This document shows, piece by piece, positions 23,494 through 44,534 of a stretch of DNA of 64,000 nt. Location of the stretch: the NCBI GenBank assembly GCA_900095095.1, contig FMBT01000169.1, forward strand, positions 1 through 64,000, written 5' to 3'. Numbering within the stretch: position 1 is the first letter of the stretch; each line of letters begins with the position of its first letter. This DNA is from Fragilariopsis cylindrus CCMP1102. Lineage: Eukaryota > Bacillariophyta > Bacillariophyceae > Bacillariales > Bacillariaceae. The notes under the pieces are model-generated. The model was given only the letters and a program-made list of their open reading frames with translations, was not told the origin of the DNA and searched no databases. Position numbers and translations under genes: made by a program.

Positions 23494-26010
23494 CTATCTA
23501 GACTGAGAGAGCTCCAAACACAAGGCCTCCAACTCTTCTGAAGATTTGACCCCGCAGCTTGTATATGTAGTATCCAAAGACAGCTGCCTCCCTTCATCTT
23601 CTAAATTCTGGCCTAGGAGGAGTAATTCACGATAGGCACGGATCTCACCACGCAATTCGCAACACATATGTATCGAGACAATTTTTCCTTCGGCAATTGC
23701 TGATTGAATTTGGACAGCAGGATCGGAGATGGCACGCCACTGATTCGGATTGATATCATTTACTAATGGATTTCCTAAAATTCTTTCCAACGAGATAATA
23801 TCTTCCCATGCATGTTCCGCTCTAACAACAAACTTTCTACTATCTGGTGAATTACTGAGCTCTTTCAATGCTTTTCGATTCCTAGATGCTATCGACAGTT
23901 TGTTGTTGCTAGTACTTGGAGAAAGATCGTATAACCAATCCTTTAAAAGTTCGTTGATAGGATTTTGAACGGCGACAACGATCGACCCATTCCATGGTTG
24001 AGGAAAATCGTCATTTGTTCCCCCCACAAATGATGAAGTATTTGTTGCTAGTTTTGAAATGTAGAATTCAGGTTTTTCACCAAACGCATTAACGAGACAA
24101 TGTTCAATCGCCATTCTACTTTGAGCTTTTTCGCATGCTGATCTGATCACAGTTTCTACCAGTTGACCACCTCGCTCTGATGCTGCGACCAGTAAGATAT
24201 TTTCGTTAGATTTGTCTTTCTGACGGATCTTTCGTTCGTAACGCAACCAGGCAGCTACCCATTTTCCTGGCTGCTTCGTTTTCTTGTCGTGTTGCCAAAG
24301 TATTGGCATCATAAGTGGTTCGCCACGAATTACTGGACCCCATAGATCTCCAAGTTCTACTTTCGTTACATTTTCAGGATGGCTTAGAACGAGATTTCCG
24401 ATTGTTATATCTTCATGATTTGTTATCTCTAACGCTCGTCGTCTCGAAAAAGGAAGCGATGCAATATGATGTGCAATATCAGCAGACATAATCTCAGCGG
24501 CACCTCCCATGTAATAATCTTGGATCATTTTCGAACAATGCTCATCCCGTTTAAATCCACAATGTTTCCTCGAAACAGATACTCCCGAATATATTCTTGT
24601 TGGGCTGGTTGGTAGTTTTTGATTAATTGTTTGTAGAAATTCAACAGGCCATATTAGTGTGTCACTGTCTACCTTGGCTATATAATCAAAAGCAAAACCC
24701 TCATTGATTAGACTCGATGCGTAAGCAAAGAAGGTTTGCATCTTCCCACCAAATTGGTTCTCCTTTATGTTAAGATACGTAGCATCCCGTTCTGGTTCCA
24801 GTCCTTTGGGGAATACGGAAGTATCAGCCAAATATTCATTGGATGACACCTGCTGGCCTTCGCCATCAATAATTAATTCCTCTGATCCGAATGGATTGCC
24901 ACCCATAAAAAATGTATACACCATCTGACAATTGTCGAAGTTGACCTTCTTCTCAATAACATCAACTAATGAACATATTCGATCTGGATTGTTATTGTGG
25001 ACAGAATGATCGTTGTATTTGTAGAAAGATAGGTATGATTTTCGAATAATATCACGCCTCCGTCGTTCCATATCATCACCTATTTGACTAGCAATTCCCC
25101 ACAAAATCTTTGGTTCTCCTCTTTGTTGATTTTCATCATTATTTAGTACCTCTATCGTTTTTTCTATTTTTGGTATTGATTCTGACTTTTCGATATAGAT
25201 AGAATTCGTCGATTCAGACTGTTCTTTTCTGTCTTTTAGATCCATCGTTCGAAGAACGTTTTCTTCTTTCGTTTTGATTCCCCACAAAATCTTTGTTCCT
25301 CTTTTCTGTTGATGTTCATCATTATTTAGTACTTCTATCGTTTTTTCTATTTTTGGTATTGATTCTGACTTTTCGATATAGATAGAATTCGTCGATTCAG
25401 ACTGTTCTTTTCTGTCGTTTAGATCCGTCGTTCGAAAACCGTTTCCTTCTATCGTTTTGTCGTCGTCGTCGTCGTCGTCGTTGACGACGTGCACGAGCAT
25501 TCTTGTTGAGTCTGATACACTGATTTGCATATGAGAATTCACATTCGAATTTGTATTCTCATTCGCCAACGCTATTACTACGGGCTGCTCGTCGCTGTCC
25601 TCTTCTTCAGTGTTGTCATGCTGAATTTCTTCGTGTAGATGATTGGAGTTATCTTCAATTTCACTTCTCAATGATCTTTTCGTTTTACCCGTACTGTGTA
25701 CGAGCATTCTTGTTGATTCTGATACACTAGGTTCCAAATGAGAATTTGCATCCGAATTTGCATCCTCATTCGACAACACTATTACTACGGGCTGCTCGTC
25801 ACTGTCCTCTTCTTCAATAGTATCACGATGATGAATTTCTTCATGTAGATGGTTAAAGTTATCTTCAATTTCACTTCTCAATAATTTTTTCGTCGTTGTA
25901 TCCATAGTACCGTGTAATACAATTGTTGACACGACCGCAAAAACCGTAGCAGAAAGAAAAACATTTAATACGGACCTTCGAACGGAATTATTAAGCAGAG
26001 ACATCTTCAT
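23494..26010 (-). CDS. GT31-like glycosyltransferase, type II membrane protein
   Basis: An intact 838-codon frame. A short cytosolic N-terminus precedes a signal anchor ([19 protein letters not shown], residues about 14-32). Residues about 44-290 contain two separate tandem duplications: [16 protein letters not shown]..STRMLVH (twice) and [25 protein letters not shown] (twice). The catalytic region has [16 protein letters not shown] (DxD-type metal-binding site), [20 protein letters not shown] and [16 protein letters not shown] (the conserved ED..G). These are family marks of beta-1,3-galactosyltransferase-like GT31 enzymes, which act in the Golgi lumen; donor and acceptor are unknown. Residues beyond about 620 ([40 protein letters not shown]) form an extra domain that looks weakly sulfotransferase-like. 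Confidence 0.75.
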
Positions 26011-32878: not shown

Positions 32879-35800
32879 ATGATGGATAATAAAAATACCA
32901 GCACTGCTACTAGCAACGCTAATGATAATAACAATAACAATAATCGTCGAAACTCCTACAGCGCTAAAAGCCATATGAGCACTTCGACCACCAGTACAAG
33001 TAGGACAGCCGCTATCAATAACTTTGTTACATCTATGAACATTATGGATACCAGCAACGGTAGTCGAAAAAGTCATTCTTCTAATAACGATAATGCGTAT
33101 CACTTCCATCATCGTAGTCCTAGTGGTAGTCCTATAGTATTGACAGTCGTGATAACAATAACACACAACAGTATGATCATCCTATCATCACAACAATAAT
33201 AATAATAATAATAATATAATATTAACAAGAAAAAAATACGTCGAAGAAGAATAAGAATCCGTTACGTGTATTGGGAATAGCAATAATTATAGATCAGAAA
33301 GGTTCAGGTGCACGAATGCTAGCTCGATATCCTACCAACAATAGCAATAACAACAGCAGCAATATTCACGACGACGACGACGACGACGACGATGAAGACA
33401 ATGATAACGATGAAGATAATGATAATGATGATCGTCATCGTGGTATCGCCGCCGCGGAGCGTGACTCCTCTGATGCAACAGCAGCAACAAAAGCAGCAGC
33501 AGCATCCAATAAATCATTCTTATCGGAAGATGATGATTTATTTTTCACATTAACGGCACGTCAAATGGCAAAATTATTTCGTACTAAAAAGGCACTATGT
33601 AATGAACCAATGACACTTCGTGTGAATAAGACTGTCTTTTGTTGTCATGCTGTTCTATTGGATAATAATAATAATAATATTGTTAATAATAATAATAATA
33701 ATGATAATGATAGCGAAATAAGAATAATAACACACCTACCGGAAGTGGTAGTAACGATAGTATTGGAGATAACAACGACAATAGTAACGATGGAAAGCCT
33801 CCACCACTGCCACTACCACTGCCGCCGCGTGACGCTTCGTCGATTTCTTCCTCCGTTGTCGAAGTTGATCTTGACAATGAGAACAACAACAAAGACGATC
33901 AGTTACAACTATTCAGCATTGTAGTAGCACTATCAGGATCGTCACAACATTCGGCATTGCCATTTTCAAGTTTTTGGGATGCGGGTGGTGGTGGTGTTGG
34001 TAGTGGTGCTAGTGGAGAAGATCGTTCGGATTTAGAACGATATCTGCGACAACTTACTAACGAAAAAGGTAAAGGCAAAGGCAAAGGCAACGATGAAACC
34101 ATCACTACCACAAAGAAAGAAAAAAACAAGGATGATGATAACCATCACAATCGGTCCTCAAATAGTCGTAAAAAGAAGAAGGAACAAACGGCAGGACGTG
34201 TTTCGTCTGCCTTTTTGGCCATTCGGAGAGTCCATATATCGTTAGTACGATTTTGTAGGGCACTTCATAGAGAAGAGAATCGTTGTGGATATGTAACGTA
34301 TCAATCTCGGGCCTTATTTCGATTAAGAAACGAACGACAGAAACAATGGGAGAAAATGTGGAGTAAACACCACCGTCCAGGATCTTCTTCGGCAGCGACA
34401 ATGACGACTAATGTTGTTGGTGGCGGCGGGGGTGATCGCAACGCAAGTCATCATCATCACCATCACCATACTCCTCAACATTCACGTCAAAATTCTTTCA
34501 TTGTCACCCCTGGTAGTGGGGATAGCAGCATGTTAGACGATACGTTATTAAAAAATGTCTTTGGTAATAACAATGTAAGTGGGGACACATTAAGTGCAGT
34601 CGAACGAGAGCAGGAAAAAGAACAGGAAATCCTTGAGTTGATGTTAGCATGCAATCCTCAAGATCATTCCAATCACAATCAACAGCAATATCAGCCAGAA
34701 GAACAGGACCTACCACAATCGTTTCAACAACAACAATATGGAAATATGGTACGCGATTTGGTAGCCGTTTTTCATTCACTTTCCCGGAACGATCATGAAT
34801 ACCCTCCAACGCCTAGTTCCTTGCTTTGCGAACGAGACGCGGTGGTTTATGTGAATCAGCATGTTGCCATACCCATTGAAGCAGCAGGTTTGAATGGTTA
34901 TTCAGCAGCAGGTGTGATATCGCCGTCGTCATCACGACAGCACGTCGACGGAGGATCATCGGTCGTTCGACCCTACTACACGTTGTTGTTTCCACATGCT
35001 TCTCCATCAGAATTGTTACAAACATTCCATGCTTCTGGATCGGCACCTCCGCAACAAATGGAACATCTATTACTTACGGTCAATCCACAAAAATCAATGA
35101 CACAAATTGCTATCGATGCCAATCTTCCTATGCATACTACAATGCAGATTTCATCCTCCCTTGTTGCACACGGAGCATGTATACCATCCCCCATTGTTAC
35201 GTCACGGTCACGATTGATGTGTCCTGGTAATGATAGTATGCAAAGAATTCCCGAACTCGCTCTTGAATTTTCTCAAGCCTTTCCTGGGATTAATTTATTT
35301 GGTGTTGTTAGCTTTCTAACCACATCATCTAGACATTTAGGAGATGCAATTGCAGTCCTACTAGATACAGAAAACGAAGAAGGGTCGTGGCTGCGTGAGT
35401 CGCTCTTAGCTTCTCCTAAATACCGGTACTACAATAATAATCGTGGGCGTAGTGGTAGTGGTGGCGGGAACGGGAACGGTGGTATTGCTGGCGATAGTCC
35501 CGCTGATGGTGCCGCTGGTGCTGATATTAACAACGGTACACATGCATTGTTCCTCGACGAAGAAACGTATTCACCAATACACGCATCGTATGCTTCATCG
35601 CGTGGAGGAGGGGCGCAGCCACCTACATCATCAGGAACACAGGACCAGGATCCTTCGCCATCGATATCGGTTCATCGATGGCTCAAGGATTTGGAAGAAT
35701 TGCTTTACGCTATCGCAATTTGGCTTCTCTCTCATGGAGTTTTGACACAGCTCCAAGAATATATGGTTATGGTTGTAGAGATCGAATCATCACCGCCATC

Positions 35801-36167
35801 ACCGTCGACGTTAAAAGCCGATTCGTCATCTTCGTTAATTGTGCCACCGTCTTTATCTTCTATATCTGCGCCACCGACGTCTTTGCCAACGACTGCTACT
35901 AGTAGTAGTAGTAGTAGTAGTATCACCCCTGCTCCTGGTATCAGTATTAATAGGAACACCAACAACGATTTTGACGAAAATTTATTTAAAGAATTAATAG
36001 AAATGGATTACTTGAATGGGGATATTTCTATTATGGCTTTGTCTTGGAGAATGGCAATTGATCCTCAAAAATTACGTCGATGGGGGTTGCGACACAAACG
36101 AATTCGGGTAGTATCTCGAGTTCCAACATACGGTGATGATTGGGAACAACCGATACTATCGGCATGA
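32879..36167 (+). CDS. NPRL3: NPRL3-like GATOR1 subunit (frame broken in the 5' third)
   Basis: The protein starts Asn/Ser-rich and reaches the family start LGIAIIIDQKGSGARMLARYP (33270), the longin-type strand found in NPRL3. It continues with FFTLTARQMAKLFRTKKALC and LRVNKTVFCCHAVLL, then a long acidic/Asn insert. After that come LQLFSIVVALSGSS, AFLAIRRVHISLVRFCRALH and REENRCGYVTYQSRAL, matching the N-terminal domain. The C-terminal part (35650-36167) has WLKDLEELLYAIAIWLLSHG and ENLFKELIEMDYLNGDISIM. The end reads LSWRMAIDPQKLRRWGLRH. In other eukaryotes NPRL3 with NPRL2 and DEPDC5 acts as GAP for Rag GTPases and restrains TORC1 at the lysosome or vacuole. The 33957-36167 section is an intact 736-codon frame. 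The earlier part needs about three frame changes. Confidence 0.8.
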
Positions 36168-36807
36168 TCCTCATCAATCGTCACCACGGCTTACTTGAGT
36201 CCAGTCTACCAGCTACGAACTACCTATTAATAACATGAACAGACACACTAAAAAATCTACTAGGATTTCAGAAAAAGAATTCTACTACGTACTTTATTTA
36301 GCTCTGCTTTTGCCTGTTTTATCATTAATCATTTTAGATGATGCCAGGATTAAGGCTAGGTCATCGAAATAAATCATTTCTTCTTTGTACATTGACTAGA
36401 AGTATTAATCAAACCGGTCTCTAGGAAATATAAATAGATATGTGCGAATCAATTTTACATACAATTGTACTAGTTTAAGTACAATAATAAATATTATACG
36501 AGTGTTAGCATAGCGCACTATTTCGTGGCGGTTGTGTCACAGTGACGTGTAAGGGACAAAATCACGCATAGTGTTTTTCCGTTTTCCCCTTCGTAAGAAA
36601 GGACTATTTCAGTATTTCTCTTCGTTTCGCTTCATGCTTTGTTTTTCGTCCATAAATAATAAAAGCAGCAAGCAGAACTCTCGAGAGAGAGAAAATACCA
36701 ACTAGGCAGTAGTAGCTACCGTAATCCGTATTAGGACACTAACTTCACAACAAGCAGAACGTCAAGAACAGTAACAATTCATACCATTTTCTATACAAAA
36801 CGCAACC
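36168..36807. other. Intergenic region
   Basis: Spacer between two plus-strand genes. Probably the 3' UTR of NPRL3 and the promoter of the DUF6824 gene. GAGAGA near 36680; nothing else recognised. Confidence 0.4.
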
Positions 36808-39006
36808 ATGGCGACACCAAACAAGTACCGGTGATAAATTATTCGAATTATCCATCATCGGGTATTCCCGCACCTCACGACCATGATGTGCTTTGTGGAA
36901 GAGGAGGCGGTACAAACAATCACAGTAAGTCATTTTTGATTTGTTCGTGTTGTGTTACAGTATTCACGCGATATTTCATCTCATCTTGAAGTAAATTTCG
37001 ATTTGGAAACTAACTTTACCATCCATGTTGTTTGATACATTTTGATTCGTTTCTCTAAACAAAAAATAATAATAATTAATTATTGAAATAAATTAATAAT
37101 CAGTTGGGAATTCCCATTGGAGGATGTTGGTAGCGGCAAACAAGCAATTGTATATCACTTTACCGAAACGACAAAAGATGTTGTTATCACGATCAATTGT
37201 GAATGCTGTACGGAGTCAGAATCCACCTGGTAGATTTTTGCAAAAGGATAGCAAAACAAAATCATGGTCGATGTCGGTGATCAAAAAGCACAAGAAAAAA
37301 CATCCCAAGCTTTACGGGAGGGTGCACCCGATATACGAAAGAAGGTTGCGAATCAAGTTACTTCTTCTACTGATGATGTGACTACAGAGTAAAGGAAACG
37401 GATGATGCAGTAGCAACAAATCCATCATCATTATCAACAACGGAACAACCGACGACGACGACTACTGCAACGTCTCTTCTTGCTCCCGAAGGTGCAACGT
37501 CTTCTGGAATGGGAGGAAGAATGATGCCACCACCTCCTCAACAACAACAACAATATGTCGGTACAACAAGTAGCAGCAGTAATAGCAATAATGGTTATGT
37601 CGCCAGCAGCAACGACAGTCGAATAACATGTACGGTTCTGTTCCTGCCACGACGAACAACAATAATACGAATAATGGTATTTATTCTGGTATGGTTGGAG
37701 GAGGAAGAAGAACAGGAATGAATAATAATTTCCAGCAACTCACCCCGTACAGCAGCAGCTGCAGCAGCAGAATAATAATAATAGTTATCAACATCATCAG
37801 TATCAACAACAGCAGCAGCATCATCATAATCAGCAGCAACAACAACCAACAACAATACTACAACAGTGGGAATAGTAACAACAACGGCACCACTGATCCT
37901 ACCCCAACATTTGATGATTTCGTTGCTGCTCCACCAGAAGAATTAGATACTCAAGGAATTAGTTTCGGTTCGATCGCTATGACAGATTCAGAAATGAATC
38001 GACTTCAACAGGCTAGTGCTATGGGTTCGAATAGACAAAGCCACCAGCAACAGCAACAAGGTCGGTATTCATTGTCACAAAAATAATAATAATTACCATG
38101 ATAATAACCCAGTCGCTCTTCCAACTAGTAATACCCTTGAACCGACAGGAATTTCTATGGGTGACGTATCAATGATGAGTGCGGGGACGAACTTTCAAAT
38201 GAAATTAGAAGATATCGGTACGTCATTTGGAACAATGATGTCCTACAATACATCACATCCCGATATGGTCGATGGTGGATTAATGGAGGCAGTTGGGACA
38301 AGTTTCGGTTCATTGTCATTAGATATGAATGGCGGCAACAACAACGATTATAACAGAGATAAGTTATATAGAACATTAGAAATTGCTGCTGGGGGTGCAG
38401 AAGTTCCACCAATGTTTTCTCATGCCGAGCAAAAATCATCTGGAAATTTATTAGATTGTGATGATACCGACTCTGAAAATTCAGATGATAAAGATAAATT
38501 AGTGGCGCAAAAATCACAAGCATGGGAAATGATGCAAACTAAACTCATACAGCAAACAAGTAAAGGCAATTCTGTTGGGTCACAGGATTTAATGCCACCA
38601 CCGCCGGGTAAGTCTACATTTGAAAATATTGAAGTGGCACTTCCTACTTCCACCTTGGAAAGTAATTTTTCAACTTTATCGGCATGGAGTGCAGCTGATG
38701 ATGATGGTAATGATTTCACTGTATCCAATTCTCATCTGGTGCTACTGTTAAGGGAGACGACGAATAGAATAACCATGACTAATAAGTGTATTATATATCA
38801 TAGTGGGTGTAGTTTGTATGTATGTATGTATGTATGTGCGGGAGACGTTGAACCTTTTGGTTTTCCATTCATTCATATGTATAAGTCAAGTCATGTCATT
38901 TGATGATCATTCCTTACCAGAAGAAATTACACCGGAAGATCCAAAAATATCTTTATCTCTGACTGGATCACGTACCGGAGGGGGGAATAATGGATGGGAG
39001 CGATGA
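36808..39006 (+). CDS. DUF6824-domain protein (frame broken, spliced)
   Basis: Exon 1 (ATG at 36808) contains NYPSSGIPAPHDHDVLCGRG and GGTNNH. An intron with GTAAGT..CAG lies at 36925-37103. Exon 2 reads IGNSHWRMLVAANKQLYITL, PKRQKMLLSRSIVNAVRSQN and PPGRFLQKDS. After a frame change it continues DVGDQKAQEKTSQALREGAP. That is a complete DUF6824 domain, a family typical of diatoms and often found on putative DNA- or chromatin-related proteins; the role is unproven. A Gln/Asn-rich linker leads to three short motifs: TQGISFGSIAM, EDIGTSFGTMMS and EAVGTSFGSLSL. The last segment (SFDDHSLPEEITPEDPKISL, stop at 39006) is reached by a probable second intron, about 38775-38885. At least five frame changes are needed. 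Confidence 0.75.
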
Positions 39007-40462: not shown

Positions 40463-43400
40463 ATGCATCTCTATCCGATTATCCTTACGGTTCTGGCGCA
40501 CTGCGTCAAATCTTCGTCCGCAACATGGGAGGAGCTTGATAATCTTCACTTTGGAGGTCGTTGGTGGCGCGACAACGATAGCATGAAGCATTCGTGGGGT
40601 GTTGGAACGTTCATCGTGCGTTTCCGTGGATCGTCCGAGCTTGTGATGCAGATGACATCGTCATGGGTCGGTGCCTACTACACTTGCCAGGTCGATGGTG
40701 GCCCCGAAGTCAAATTATTTCACGACAACCAGATTGATTACTTCCAAGTAGCAGCAGGTCTCTCTCCGAGCAAGGAACATATCGTTCGATGCGGCCGCAA
40801 CAATGAAGCCTCTTGGGGACCTACGATCATCGACGGTATTGTTCTAGACCCTAACGGGGAGCTACTTCAAGCCGTGGATCCCAATGCGGGAAACACCATG
40901 CTACGGTTTGAGGCCATCGGAGATAGCATTACTGCGGGTTTTAAAGCAACGGCCACCACTGCTGCAGAGCCGTCAACAATTGCCAATCAGGACGTTTTCC
41001 AGACCTATGTTCGATACATGGCAGATGCGTGGGGTACCAATGACTACAACGTCATTGCCAAAAGTGGTGTATCTATCTTGGACTACGGTACTACCGTGTG
41101 GTTTTTTTGTCGCGTGTTGTGAAAGAGGCGATCCTATTCGTCCATCTATATAATTTCCTTATGCTTTTTTGATCTAGTGATGTCGCAGGAATTTCCGTGC
41201 CGTGAATTTTGGGATACGTGGCAAGAGGGCTGCCCCCAACTCCATGACTTTTCCAGTTGGCAAGCCGATGTGGTAACGATCAATCTCGGCACGAATGATT
41301 TTGCATTCGGAGATCCCACGAAAGAGGCATTCCGCGAGGGATACCTCAGCTTCATCCAAGACGTTCGTCAAAAATATCCCAACGCATTAATTGCATGCAT
41401 GGAACCCATCCTGGATTCCTGTGCGGTGAACCAACCCATCCTAACCGATATTGTGGATGGTTTGGAACAGGCGGTGATCGACATGAACGACGAAAAGGTG
41501 ATTTATTACGAAACGGGAAGTCCTGCCGACCCATGGTTGGTTTGTGCCACGGATTATACGGACTATACTCACCCCACGGTGGTAGGAAACGAAAAGTTTG
41601 CCGCACGAATGCTCGAAAGTACGAGCATCACGGACGATATCCGTCGCTTCTTTCCAAAAAATGCGGAGGTACCGGAGCCTTCTGTCAGGTTGGCGCTCCC
41701 ACAGCAGCAGTTCCGACTCCGTCACCTGTTCCTATCACCATCCCAACAACGGTTATTGAGCTTGCCCCTACTGTTATGCATTCGGAAGAATCGCGTTTGA
41801 TCGCCTTTGTTGGGAACTGGCAGGCATGTCCATCGGACGCTCAGCTTGCTCAATACACACACATCATCATTTCATTTGCGGTATCCTATACATGGAGTCC
41901 CAACAAGAACATATGCAGCCAACAGTGCGACATTGCAACTCCTCTCACTTGTGGAAACACTGCTCGTCCTGATTTGATCCAGAGATGGCAAGAGCAAGGC
42001 AAGAAAGTCCTGCTATCATTTGGTGGCGCCGGTATGGGTGGATCTTGGTCTGGTGATGTCAAGTAAGTGACCCTTCCTCGATTATTGATACAGATGGTAT
42101 TGCTGTTTGTTCATCGTATAATATGTTATACAAATTTACCCACACAAACGTTTGTCTGCTATTTATCATCTATCACTTTTAAATTTAGTGATTGCTGGGA
42201 GTATTGTTACGGGAAGGAAGAAAAAGTTGTTGATCGCTTAGCAGATATTGTCAACGAAGTAGGTTTCGATGGTATTGATATCGATTATGAATACTTTTAT
42301 GAAGACAATCAGAATGGATCCGGATTTACTAAGGGGACACAAGCCCAAACGTTCTTGAGAGATATTACCGTTGGACTTCGCAATAAGTTACCAATCGGAT
42401 CAGAATTGACGCATGCACCGATGGAGCGTAAGTTTTCTTGTCTCGATAATATCATTGCGCATCGTGTATATTTGCCGCATATACGAATTCTAACCTAACT
42501 TATATTTTTCTTTTCTTCTCAATTCTATTAATTTTACAGCGGATATGGAACCAGGCAGAGGCTACTTTAACGTGTTGAAGGAAATCGCAGAAGATACTCT
42601 TGATTTCTTGATGCCCCAATATTACAATGGGTATGTTAGATCGTATACCAATTTCTCCGGAGCCTTGTCGCACTTCACTGCAATCACTGATCAAATGTTT
42701 GGAGGAAATCCAAATAAGATTGTCTATGGATTCTGTATTAGTGATTGCGGGTCTTTCAACCTAGATGGTGATCAATCTGCTCAAGTAATGGAATGGTTAT
42801 CTGAAGAATATCCTTGTAACGGTGGTGCCTTCTTTTGGGTTGCAAATGATGATACCAATGGAGATTGGTCGAAAGTAGTGAAGGATCAACTTCAGATAGA
42901 TAGCAGCACTGCATCATGTTCGGGCAACACCGAACCTACAGGCCCTACTACTCCAGTCGTCGCACCTGTTTCTACTCCATCAAGGTCACCCATCGCAGTA
43001 GTGGTCAATCCAACGACTGTGCCAACAGTTGCACCCATTTCGATTCCAGTTCAAGGATCAAAATGTCTTGCTATCCCACAAGCAGAGTTACCCGCCGGCT
43101 CGTGGGCTACTAACGATGCAGCTTGTGCATTGTGTGGGGCCGATTATACTTGGTGGCCTTGTGACGTACAAAGTCCATCCCCTTTGTGTCAGTGTGATAA
43201 TGACAGTCCTCCTGTCAGTTCCCCCGTCAATCCTCCTACGAGTTCTCCTGTCAATCCTTCTACCAGAACACCTGTCAATCCTCCTACCAGAGCACCTACC
43301 AATCCTCCTACGAGGTCTTCTGTCAATCTTCCTACGTCAACAATTGTTGCAGGATCCGACTGTACCGCCATCCCACAAGAAGAATTACCATCGGGTTCTT

Positions 43401-43549
43401 GGGCGACTACCGTTGAATATTGCGCATTATGTGAAACCGGTGATCATCCTTGGTGGCCTTGTGATGTACAGAACCCTCCTTTATGCCGATGTCATGAGGC
43501 AATAGAAATACGTCTCCGTCGTCGGTTAGGTGCTCCGACGAGCCATTAG
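40463..43549 (+). CDS. Secreted fusion: CE2-like SGNH esterase, GH18 chitinase, two Cys-rich modules
   Basis: Four exons: 40463-41087, 41178-42062, 42189-42427 and 42540-43549. The last two introns join frames exactly; the first is probable. A signal peptide (MHLYPIILTVLAHC) is followed by a beta-jelly-roll-like region and an SGNH hydrolase: GDSIT (nucleophile Ser155), GTND (246-249) and DYTH (Asp337/His340). This arrangement matches carbohydrate esterase family 2. After a Pro/Ser/Thr linker comes a GH18 domain: LIAFVGNWQACPSDAQLAQY, VLLSFGGAGMGGSWSGD and the catalytic DGIDIDYE (Glu codon at 42289), then FLMPQYYNGYV and GAFFWVANDD. The tail has two six-Cys modules (AIPQxELPxGSWAT..CALC..WWPCDVQ..LCxC) separated by PVNPPT repeats. 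One missing base near 41690 breaks the linker. It probably acts outside the cell on acetylated chitin or a related glycan. Confidence 0.85.
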
Positions 43550-43908
43550 ATCAGATCTTATTTTTTGTCTCTCGGGATGTAGTCTAAATGCAAATAATTA
43601 AACACAAAAATAAGCTACATATTTTATTCAATAGAAGTGATAAATATGAACGAGAAAATTTCTTCTGTCACGTCAAAACTTTCTGTTGTTGAACAAAGCA
43701 GCCTTGCATACATCTTACATTATACAACTGTTTAATGGAACTCATCCTTTGTAAATTAGAAAGGAAGGATGTTGTGTTTTTGTATGTGTGGGAAATCTGA
43801 AAAAACACCTATTTCTCATTTATTGCGCGCTTTTTTTGATTTTCCGCCCTTCAAAAAAAATCACATTGACTACTAGTAATAATACCGTACGATAGTTGAC
43901 TCACTCTA
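43550..43908. other. 3' flank of the esterase-chitinase gene with repeat copy 2
   Basis: Direct repeat copy 2 spans about 43666-43908. It keeps the same ordered blocks as copy 1 but contains an extra segment of about 60 bases (near 43805-43865) and stops at CACTCTA, where the mobile element begins. Confidence 0.8.
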
Positions 43909-44423
43909 CTGGAGCGTCCGCGATTCACGATATACGTGCGGGATTAAAAATTTATAAACGCGCGTGGAGGGCCATGGGAAATTTTTGTACGCGACCAAAT
44001 TTTAATTGGGGGCATACTTGATATGTTTTGGGGACTATATTTGGTCGCGGAATATTAAGTAACATATATTAGTGAGAATAATATATATATTAGTCTAATT
44101 AATATATATATTAGCCGGACTAATATATATATTAGTGAAGAAATTGAAGATAAATTGAGCTCGTAGTTAATAGCAAAATCGTATTACAGTTTGTGCGAGC
44201 TCGTTTTTATTCTGTATTAAAATATATTAGCCGGATATATATATTAGTCTATTAATATATTTATTAGCCGGACTAATATATATAGTAATATGCCCTAAAA
44301 TAATTACCCCCAAAACTTAATTTTATTATGCAAATGTTTAGGTCGCGTTAAAATTTCCCTGTCCTCCACGCTGGCAAGATTTTAATTTTAATCGCGCCCA
44401 GACTCGCTTTCGCGGACGCTCTG
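43909..44423. mobile_element. Non-autonomous TIR element (MITE), 515 bp, TA-flanked
   Basis: The ends are inverted: left CTGGAGCGTCCGCGA, right (reverse complement) CAGAGCGTCCGCGA. The similarity extends inward through GATTAAAAxT, GCGTGGAGG, GGGAAATTTT and ACGCGACC on both sides. TA flanks both ends (43907-43908 and 44424-44425), as for a Tc1/mariner-type target site. There is no transposase. The interior is AT-rich, built of TAATATATATATTAG units joined by CCGGA, and contains an 11-bp hairpin (CGCGACCAAAT at 43990-44000 with ATTTGGTCGCG at 44039-44049). The element sits at the edge of repeat copy 2. Confidence 0.85.
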
Positions 44424-44534
44424 TACTGTATTACATATTATTATACTACGACAATAAGGATGGTGAGAATGGATTGAATGCTTACTTTACTGTATATATA
44501 AACATCAGTTGTGAGGAATTGGATGCTATGAATC

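Follow-up and report, generated by a model that had tools for sequence, protein, structure and literature searches.

Our best explanation of the sequence, to which we give an even chance of being right, is that one gene of the diatom Fragilariopsis cylindrus CCMP1102 joins a CE2 esterase unit, a GH18 unit and two Cys modules into a likely secreted two-enzyme protein, and that a one-base frame break between the enzyme halves is most likely a shared consensus error. The gene lies in the window, by which we mean the whole stretch of 64,000 nucleotides analysed (contig FMBT01000169.1, positions 1 to 64,000, forward strand; C434 below). The assembly comprises 67.9 Mb in 818 contigs, and a second copy of the gene is found on contig C462. 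Given the one-base break at the joint, calling the fusion real would take transcript sequence.

Gene model

The gene occupies window positions 40463-43549 on the plus strand, with four exons and three GT-AG introns (Table 1). Sequence inspection placed its ATG at 40463 and its stop at 43547-43549. The stop-free runs are 231, 225, 255, 143 and 351 codons long. As a control for chance, 300 first-order Markov sequences of 5 kb each were searched for their longest run over six frames, which had a mean of 124 codons and a maximum of 236. Two of the runs (255 and 351 codons) exceed this maximum and are thus beyond chance by length alone; the predicted coding status of the 231-, 225- and 143-codon runs rests on domain matches, not on length. 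The hydrophobic N-terminus of the predicted protein fits a signal peptide. By a rough estimate, the fused product would have about 920 residues and a mass near 100 kDa.

Table 1. Features of the gene and its surroundings in window coordinates.
Feature	Position	Strand	Description
DUF6824-type gene	36790-38900		3 kb upstream of the CE2/GH18 gene; two frame breaks
Exon 1	40463-41095	+	Hydrophobic N-terminus (signal-peptide-like), CE2_N at 40553-40870, first SGNH/GDSL part (GDSIT)
Intron 1	41096-41188	+	93 nt, GTGTGG..TCGCAG in the window contig
Exon 2, CE2 part	41189-41655	+	CE2 frame; GTND, DYTH; GDSL match to about 41593
A run with one-base frame break	41656-41661	+	Between CE2 frame and GH18 frame; identical in C462
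GH18-frame continuation	41659-42062	+	KCGGTGAFC tail of the CE2 unit, Pro/Thr linker, first GH18 part
Intron 2	42063-42188	+	126 nt, GTAAGT..ATTTAG
GH18 exon	42189-42427	+	DGIDIDYE at 42268-42291
Intron 3	42428-42539	+	112 nt, GTAAGT..TTACAG
Last exon	42540-43549	+	Remaining GH18, linkers, two Cys modules, stop
Cys module 1	43049-43198	+	Six Cys
PVNPPT-type linker	43207-43335	+	Coded by a 24-base tandem repeat
Cys module 2	43346-43498	+	Six Cys, 67% identical to module 1

A sequence-only reading of this DNA had listed the motifs GDSIT, GTND, DYTH and DGIDIDYE and two six-Cys modules on PVNPPT linkers, and all of them are present. It had also described one reading path, which does not stand as sequenced because the CE2 and GH18 frames differ by one base. 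The one-base break that it bridged is present in the assembled sequence; it had placed the missing base near 41690, about 30 bases downstream of the A run (41656-41661) in which the frame changes.

The boundaries of intron 1 are not certain, since C434 and C462 differ at its 5' end. This intron is strongly different between the two contigs (41096-41170), with the flanking exons and introns 2 and 3 identical. About 520 bases of the window (43909-44428) are without counterpart at the corresponding place in C462. In a GH18 paralog on contig C354, which by eye has a hevein-like motif ahead of its GH18 unit, the reading breaks at the same place as intron 3 (HAPME/DM), and the position of this intron is common to both genes.

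The two enzyme halves

Assignment of the first half to CE2, as proposed from the sequence alone, was confirmed by matches to CE2_N (PF17996; 36.1 bits against a Pfam cut-off of 27.9) and Lipase_GDSL_2 (PF13472; 67.2 bits against 32.9). CtCel5C-CE2 (2wao) was the closest of five PDB sequences, at 8.3e-19. In the alignment, GDSIT, SGV, GTND and the His of DYTHP correspond to GDSIT, SGI, GTND and WHP of 2wao. The Asp found two residues before the His in CjCE2A and CtCE2 (PMC2661963) is absent here, where D-Y-T-H places an Asp three residues before the His. According to the same source, 14 of 26 CE2 members are without this Asp (PMC2661963), so the DYTH spacing does not disqualify the window protein from CE2 membership.

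CtCel5C-CE2 of Clostridium thermocellum (PDB 2wao and 2wab; PMC2661963) is also the nearest known parallel in architecture, being likewise a secreted protein in which a CE2 unit (jelly-roll plus SGNH) is joined to a glycoside hydrolase. The positions of the active-site Ser, Gly and Asn align between the two. In contrast, the partner enzyme in CtCel5C-CE2 is a GH5 cellulase at the N-terminal side (PMC2661963), whereas the window gene has GH18 at the C-terminal side. CtCE2 has the motif DWH in place of DYTH; the two proteins therefore differ in how the Asp is spaced and in the Trp that belongs to the cellulose-binding platform.

The second half matches GH18 (PF00704) at 53.8 bits against a Pfam cut-off of 29.6, from about 41794 onward. 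Its closest relative among four PDB sequences is 6k7z, named as a GH18 chitinase (2.5e-18). The catalytic motif of GH18 enzymes is DxxDxDxE, and it is present as DGIDIDYE. With the family match above its cut-off, the 6k7z match and this intact motif, the earlier GH18 assignment is upheld.

Paralogs, constraint and origin of the combination

Each half has a relative elsewhere in the same genome. CE2_N gave four matches, which represent two loci, each in two contigs. The second locus (C723/C534) carries a CE2 unit 67% identical to that of the window and with the same Cys tail; in C723 this unit stands alone, with a hydrophobic, membrane-anchor-like tail where the window gene has GH18. PF00704 gave at least four matches over the genome, a lower bound on GH18 loci since the window's own GH18 is not among the matches listed. 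The GH18 unit of C604 is 70% identical to that of the window, but there LPMO_10 and a hevein-like motif take the place of CE2 and the Cys-rich end is different. The C604 gene is an ORF of 807 codons (L036, 2781-5201, minus strand) with LPMO_10 at 58.3 bits, a sub-threshold Chitin_bind_1 match and GH18, and because this ORF is uninterrupted, no intron breaks its GH18. Two further GH18 places lie on contigs C253 and C421. Decayed fragments on contig C411 are found at L039 (2100-2500, minus strand) and L040 (1900-2700, minus strand), about 420 kb apart.

Comparison of the GH18 units of the window and C604 gave a dN/dS of 0.093 over 334 codons, at a dS of 2.49 that is near saturation. Between the CE2 units of the window and C723, differences at codon positions one, two and three numbered 87, 71 and 211 over 360 codons; silent sites are saturated in this pair, and no ratio is given. 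Judged from these patterns, both halves were under selection until recently, and a recent break would not show. Taken together, the picture from these sequences is one of unit exchange among predicted secreted proteins, in which CE2 and GH18 units would have been recombined within one genome.

The frame break at the joint

The CE2 and GH18 frames are offset by one base, with the shift inside the A run, and past the break the CE2 frame stays open to a stop at 41800. The CE2-only paralog is informative about what this region once encoded. C723 ends in FFPEKCGGSGIFC; this end reads RRFFPEKCGGSGIFC in a single frame, and the same tail is found in C534. In the window, the corresponding residues are divided, the CE2 frame encoding RRFFP and the GH18 frame encoding KCGGTGAFC. 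Three of the eight codons from CGG to FC have changed silently between the window and C723. Since the paralog has its tail in one frame and the matching tail of the window lies in the GH18 frame, the ancestral frame led directly from the CE2 half into the GH18 half. The comparison thus supports a frame that both halves once shared, and the fusion is not a chance product of genes lying side by side.

The break is present in both contigs that carry the gene. C462 is collinear with C434 over most of 22667-64000, and we therefore take the two gene copies as haplotypes. The tract 41166-43759 is identical between them, with zero exon substitutions, and within it C434 and C462 are not independent witnesses. 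A dN/dS between alleles was considered as a test of function and rejected, because the exons are without differences between the contigs.

A dead gene seems to us somewhat less likely than a consensus error. One-base indels are frequent in the assembly: C434 and C462 differ by 249 of them over 55,429 aligned bases. In the nine of 14 ORFs with at most two substitutions, few of which have a family match, there are 18 frame-changing indels against six substitutions in 13,400 bases. The DUF6824-type gene upstream is broken in a similar manner. A frame change interrupts its domain, so that profile positions 14-66 are matched in one frame and 67-84 in another, in both contigs alike. Near the start of this gene, C434 but not C462 lacks one more base. 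The silicon-transporter family, whose 27 matches in the assembly (best 1.1e-226) mark the host as a diatom, was also inspected, and three of 12 loci (C600, C639 and C77) have a frame change at a place that leaves no space for an intron. Related contigs are broken as well, C534 with two breaks and C354 with one or more. It is the indel-rich assembly, together with the shared break in the neighbouring DUF6824 gene, that tips our judgement towards an error. Against this, both contigs carry an identical A run, the identical tract without exon substitutions suggests that the local consensus is cleaner than elsewhere, and two ORFs in other long identical tracts (23494-26010 and 33957-36167) are unbroken. 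If the break is indeed an error, the gene could yield a single uninterrupted CE2-GH18 protein.

A clean local consensus also fits a real frameshift shared by both copies. Under this alternative, which we regard as possible but doubtful, a genuine frameshift has become fixed, the gene now yields a CE2 protein alone, whose unrelated C-terminal tail ends at 41800, and the GH18 part has recently been silenced. The same run in both contigs and the clean consensus with zero exon substitutions agree with such a loss, as do the decayed CE2 and Cys-module fragments with stops on C411, which indicate that losses happen in this family. However, the GH18 exons contain no stop or further break, and both the catalytic motif and the splice sites are intact. 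The sequence has also been under strong constraint, though a recent break would leave no trace of its relaxation. Moreover, the shared DUF6824 break would then mean two adjacent dead genes. Were the break real, the locus would represent ordinary gene loss.

An unrecognised intron could also remove the break, in which case the two halves would be fused through a shorter joint. There are 20 GT-AG pairs near the joint that link both frames without a stop, and one candidate intron (41669-41760, 92 nt) is near the other introns in size (93, 126 and 112 nt). Among 20 candidate pairs, however, some are expected by chance. The candidate donor, GTACCG, is unlike the GTAAGT with which introns 2 and 3 begin, and splicing from 41669 would delete most of the conserved KCGGTGAFC tail, whose coding pattern is kept relative to the paralog. 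We consider this explanation unlikely.

The fusion could also be as proposed but with a GH18 domain that is an N-glycan-trimming endo-beta-N-acetylglucosaminidase and not a chitinase. Weak sub-threshold matches to TIM-barrel_EndoS (0.026) and to Endoglyc_H (5.1e-05, with 22.6 bits where the cut-off is 300) are in line with this, as is the negative outcome of a weak test for chitin synthases in the assembly. In contrast, the closest solved relative (6k7z) is a GH18 chitinase, the closest paralog (C604) carries LPMO_10 and sub-threshold Chitin_bind_1, and the C354 paralog has, by eye, a hevein-like Cys motif ahead of GH18. An enzyme of this type at the window locus is therefore quite unlikely.

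It is very unlikely that the CE2 and GH18 parts are separate genes, the latter starting independently. An in-frame ATG does lie just ahead of GH18 (for example, before HSEESRLIAF), and CE2 and GH18 domains each occur separately at other loci. Nevertheless, intergenic space is absent, the CE2 tail continues in the GH18 frame, and by eye no signal-peptide-like stretch follows that ATG, yet secreted-type linkers and Cys modules follow GH18.

Slippery sites for ribosomes have the form X-XXY-YYZ. The A-AAA-AAT run (41656-41662) fits this form and the required shift is in the right direction, so that a genuine break could be used, by a -1 slip or by switched splicing, to make both CE2 alone and the CE2-GH18 fusion; this is the least probable of the readings. 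The programmed frameshift was rejected because a downstream structure is absent: of 200 shuffled versions of the 96 bases that follow the run, 157 folded at least as stably as the real sequence (z +0.81). In the CE2-only paralog the A run at the joint position is shorter, and no slip is needed.

Cys modules

The two Cys modules had been called near-identical, a description that their 67% identity does not bear out. None of three modules had a match above cut-off in Pfam, and one module queried against NCBIfam and PHROG gave no match. The best PDB match was to the histone methyltransferase NSD3 (E = 0.011), and structure prediction returned a pLDDT of 45.1 and a pTM of 0.23, values too low to assign a fold. 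The same module is found at the C-terminus of a PT-repeat gene on C513/C343 (L041, 2982-5154, minus strand; L042, 1148-3227, plus strand), which has an ice-binding-like adhesive domain (PF20597) and no chitinase match. This suggests a general extracellular module not tied to chitinases. The proposal that the modules bind or anchor the protein thus loses ground as far as chitin binding is concerned, both from the lack of a family match and from the presence of the module in a non-chitinase gene.

Substrate and proposed mechanism

The acetyl groups of chitin are N-linked amides. Characterised CE2 enzymes act on O-acetyl esters, so the CE2 domain would not be expected to deacetylate chitin, and the earlier suggestion that the protein removes acetyls from a beta-chitin-like glycan is weakened. 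Those described in PMC2661963 remove O-acetyl groups from xylan and glucomannan; one of these enzymes additionally binds cellulose via the active site and assists its fused cellulase partner (PMC2661963). By analogy with this CE2-cellulase precedent, the CE2 domain of the window protein might remove O-acetyl groups from a glycan or bind it, and so help GH18.

The cell's own beta-chitin is also a less attractive substrate than it first seemed. Diatom chitin synthases are described as members of the Chitin_synth_2 family (PMC10134812), and a search of the whole assembly for Chitin_synth_2 (PF03142) found none; this is a weak test, in which controls were matched in only four bacteria and no diatom served as control. 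An approximate chitin synthase motif segment had no match in the genome in a search run with no positive control. Since diatom synthases belong to the family searched for, the result leans, weakly, against chitin of the cell's own making. A GH19 search of the genome was empty, but its controls were equally empty, which makes the result uninformative. Polysaccharide deacetylase (PF01522) gave two matches in the genome.

The sequence shows the domains and their motifs, the frame once common to both halves, the break in both contigs and constraint on each half. From these observations we infer secretion, the two enzyme activities and their substrate, what the Cys modules do and the nature of the break as an error, and we propose the following model. 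A CE2 esterase unit, which is found alone at a second locus, would have been joined to a GH18 unit, which has other partners elsewhere, with two Cys modules behind. The CE2 domain would remove O-acetyl esters from an extracellular glycan or bind it, the GH18 domain would cleave beta-1,4-GlcNAc links, either in that glycan or in one next to it, and the Cys modules may hold the protein to a surface or matrix. If a single protein is made, it would point to a glycan bearing O-acetyl groups as well as beta-1,4-GlcNAc links, or to a joint attack on two glycans, at the diatom surface or in its food.

Relation to known proteins

We regard the gene as a new domain combination of known families, and if a single protein is made it would be a eukaryotic case of CE2 joined to GH18. 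The sequence-only reading knew of no described protein with this architecture, and our search agrees: no CE2-GH18 protein was found in the literature searched, though the architecture may be common in diatoms and unremarked. The words 'GDSL', 'lipase' and 'esterase' are absent from the main texts of two surveys of Thalassiosira chitinases (PMC7874618, PMC12028343). The nine auxiliary domains listed for T. weissflogii include no esterase (PMC12028343). Short peptide patterns, whose reach is close relatives, found no close relative of the fusion in viral contigs or in bacterial and archaeal genomes. The GH18 chitinases described from the diatom Thalassiosira are multidomain proteins with Chitin_bind_1, CBM_14, LPMO_10, GH19 and further partners (PMC7874618, PMC12028343), and the LPMO_10-GH18 paralog on C604 resembles them.
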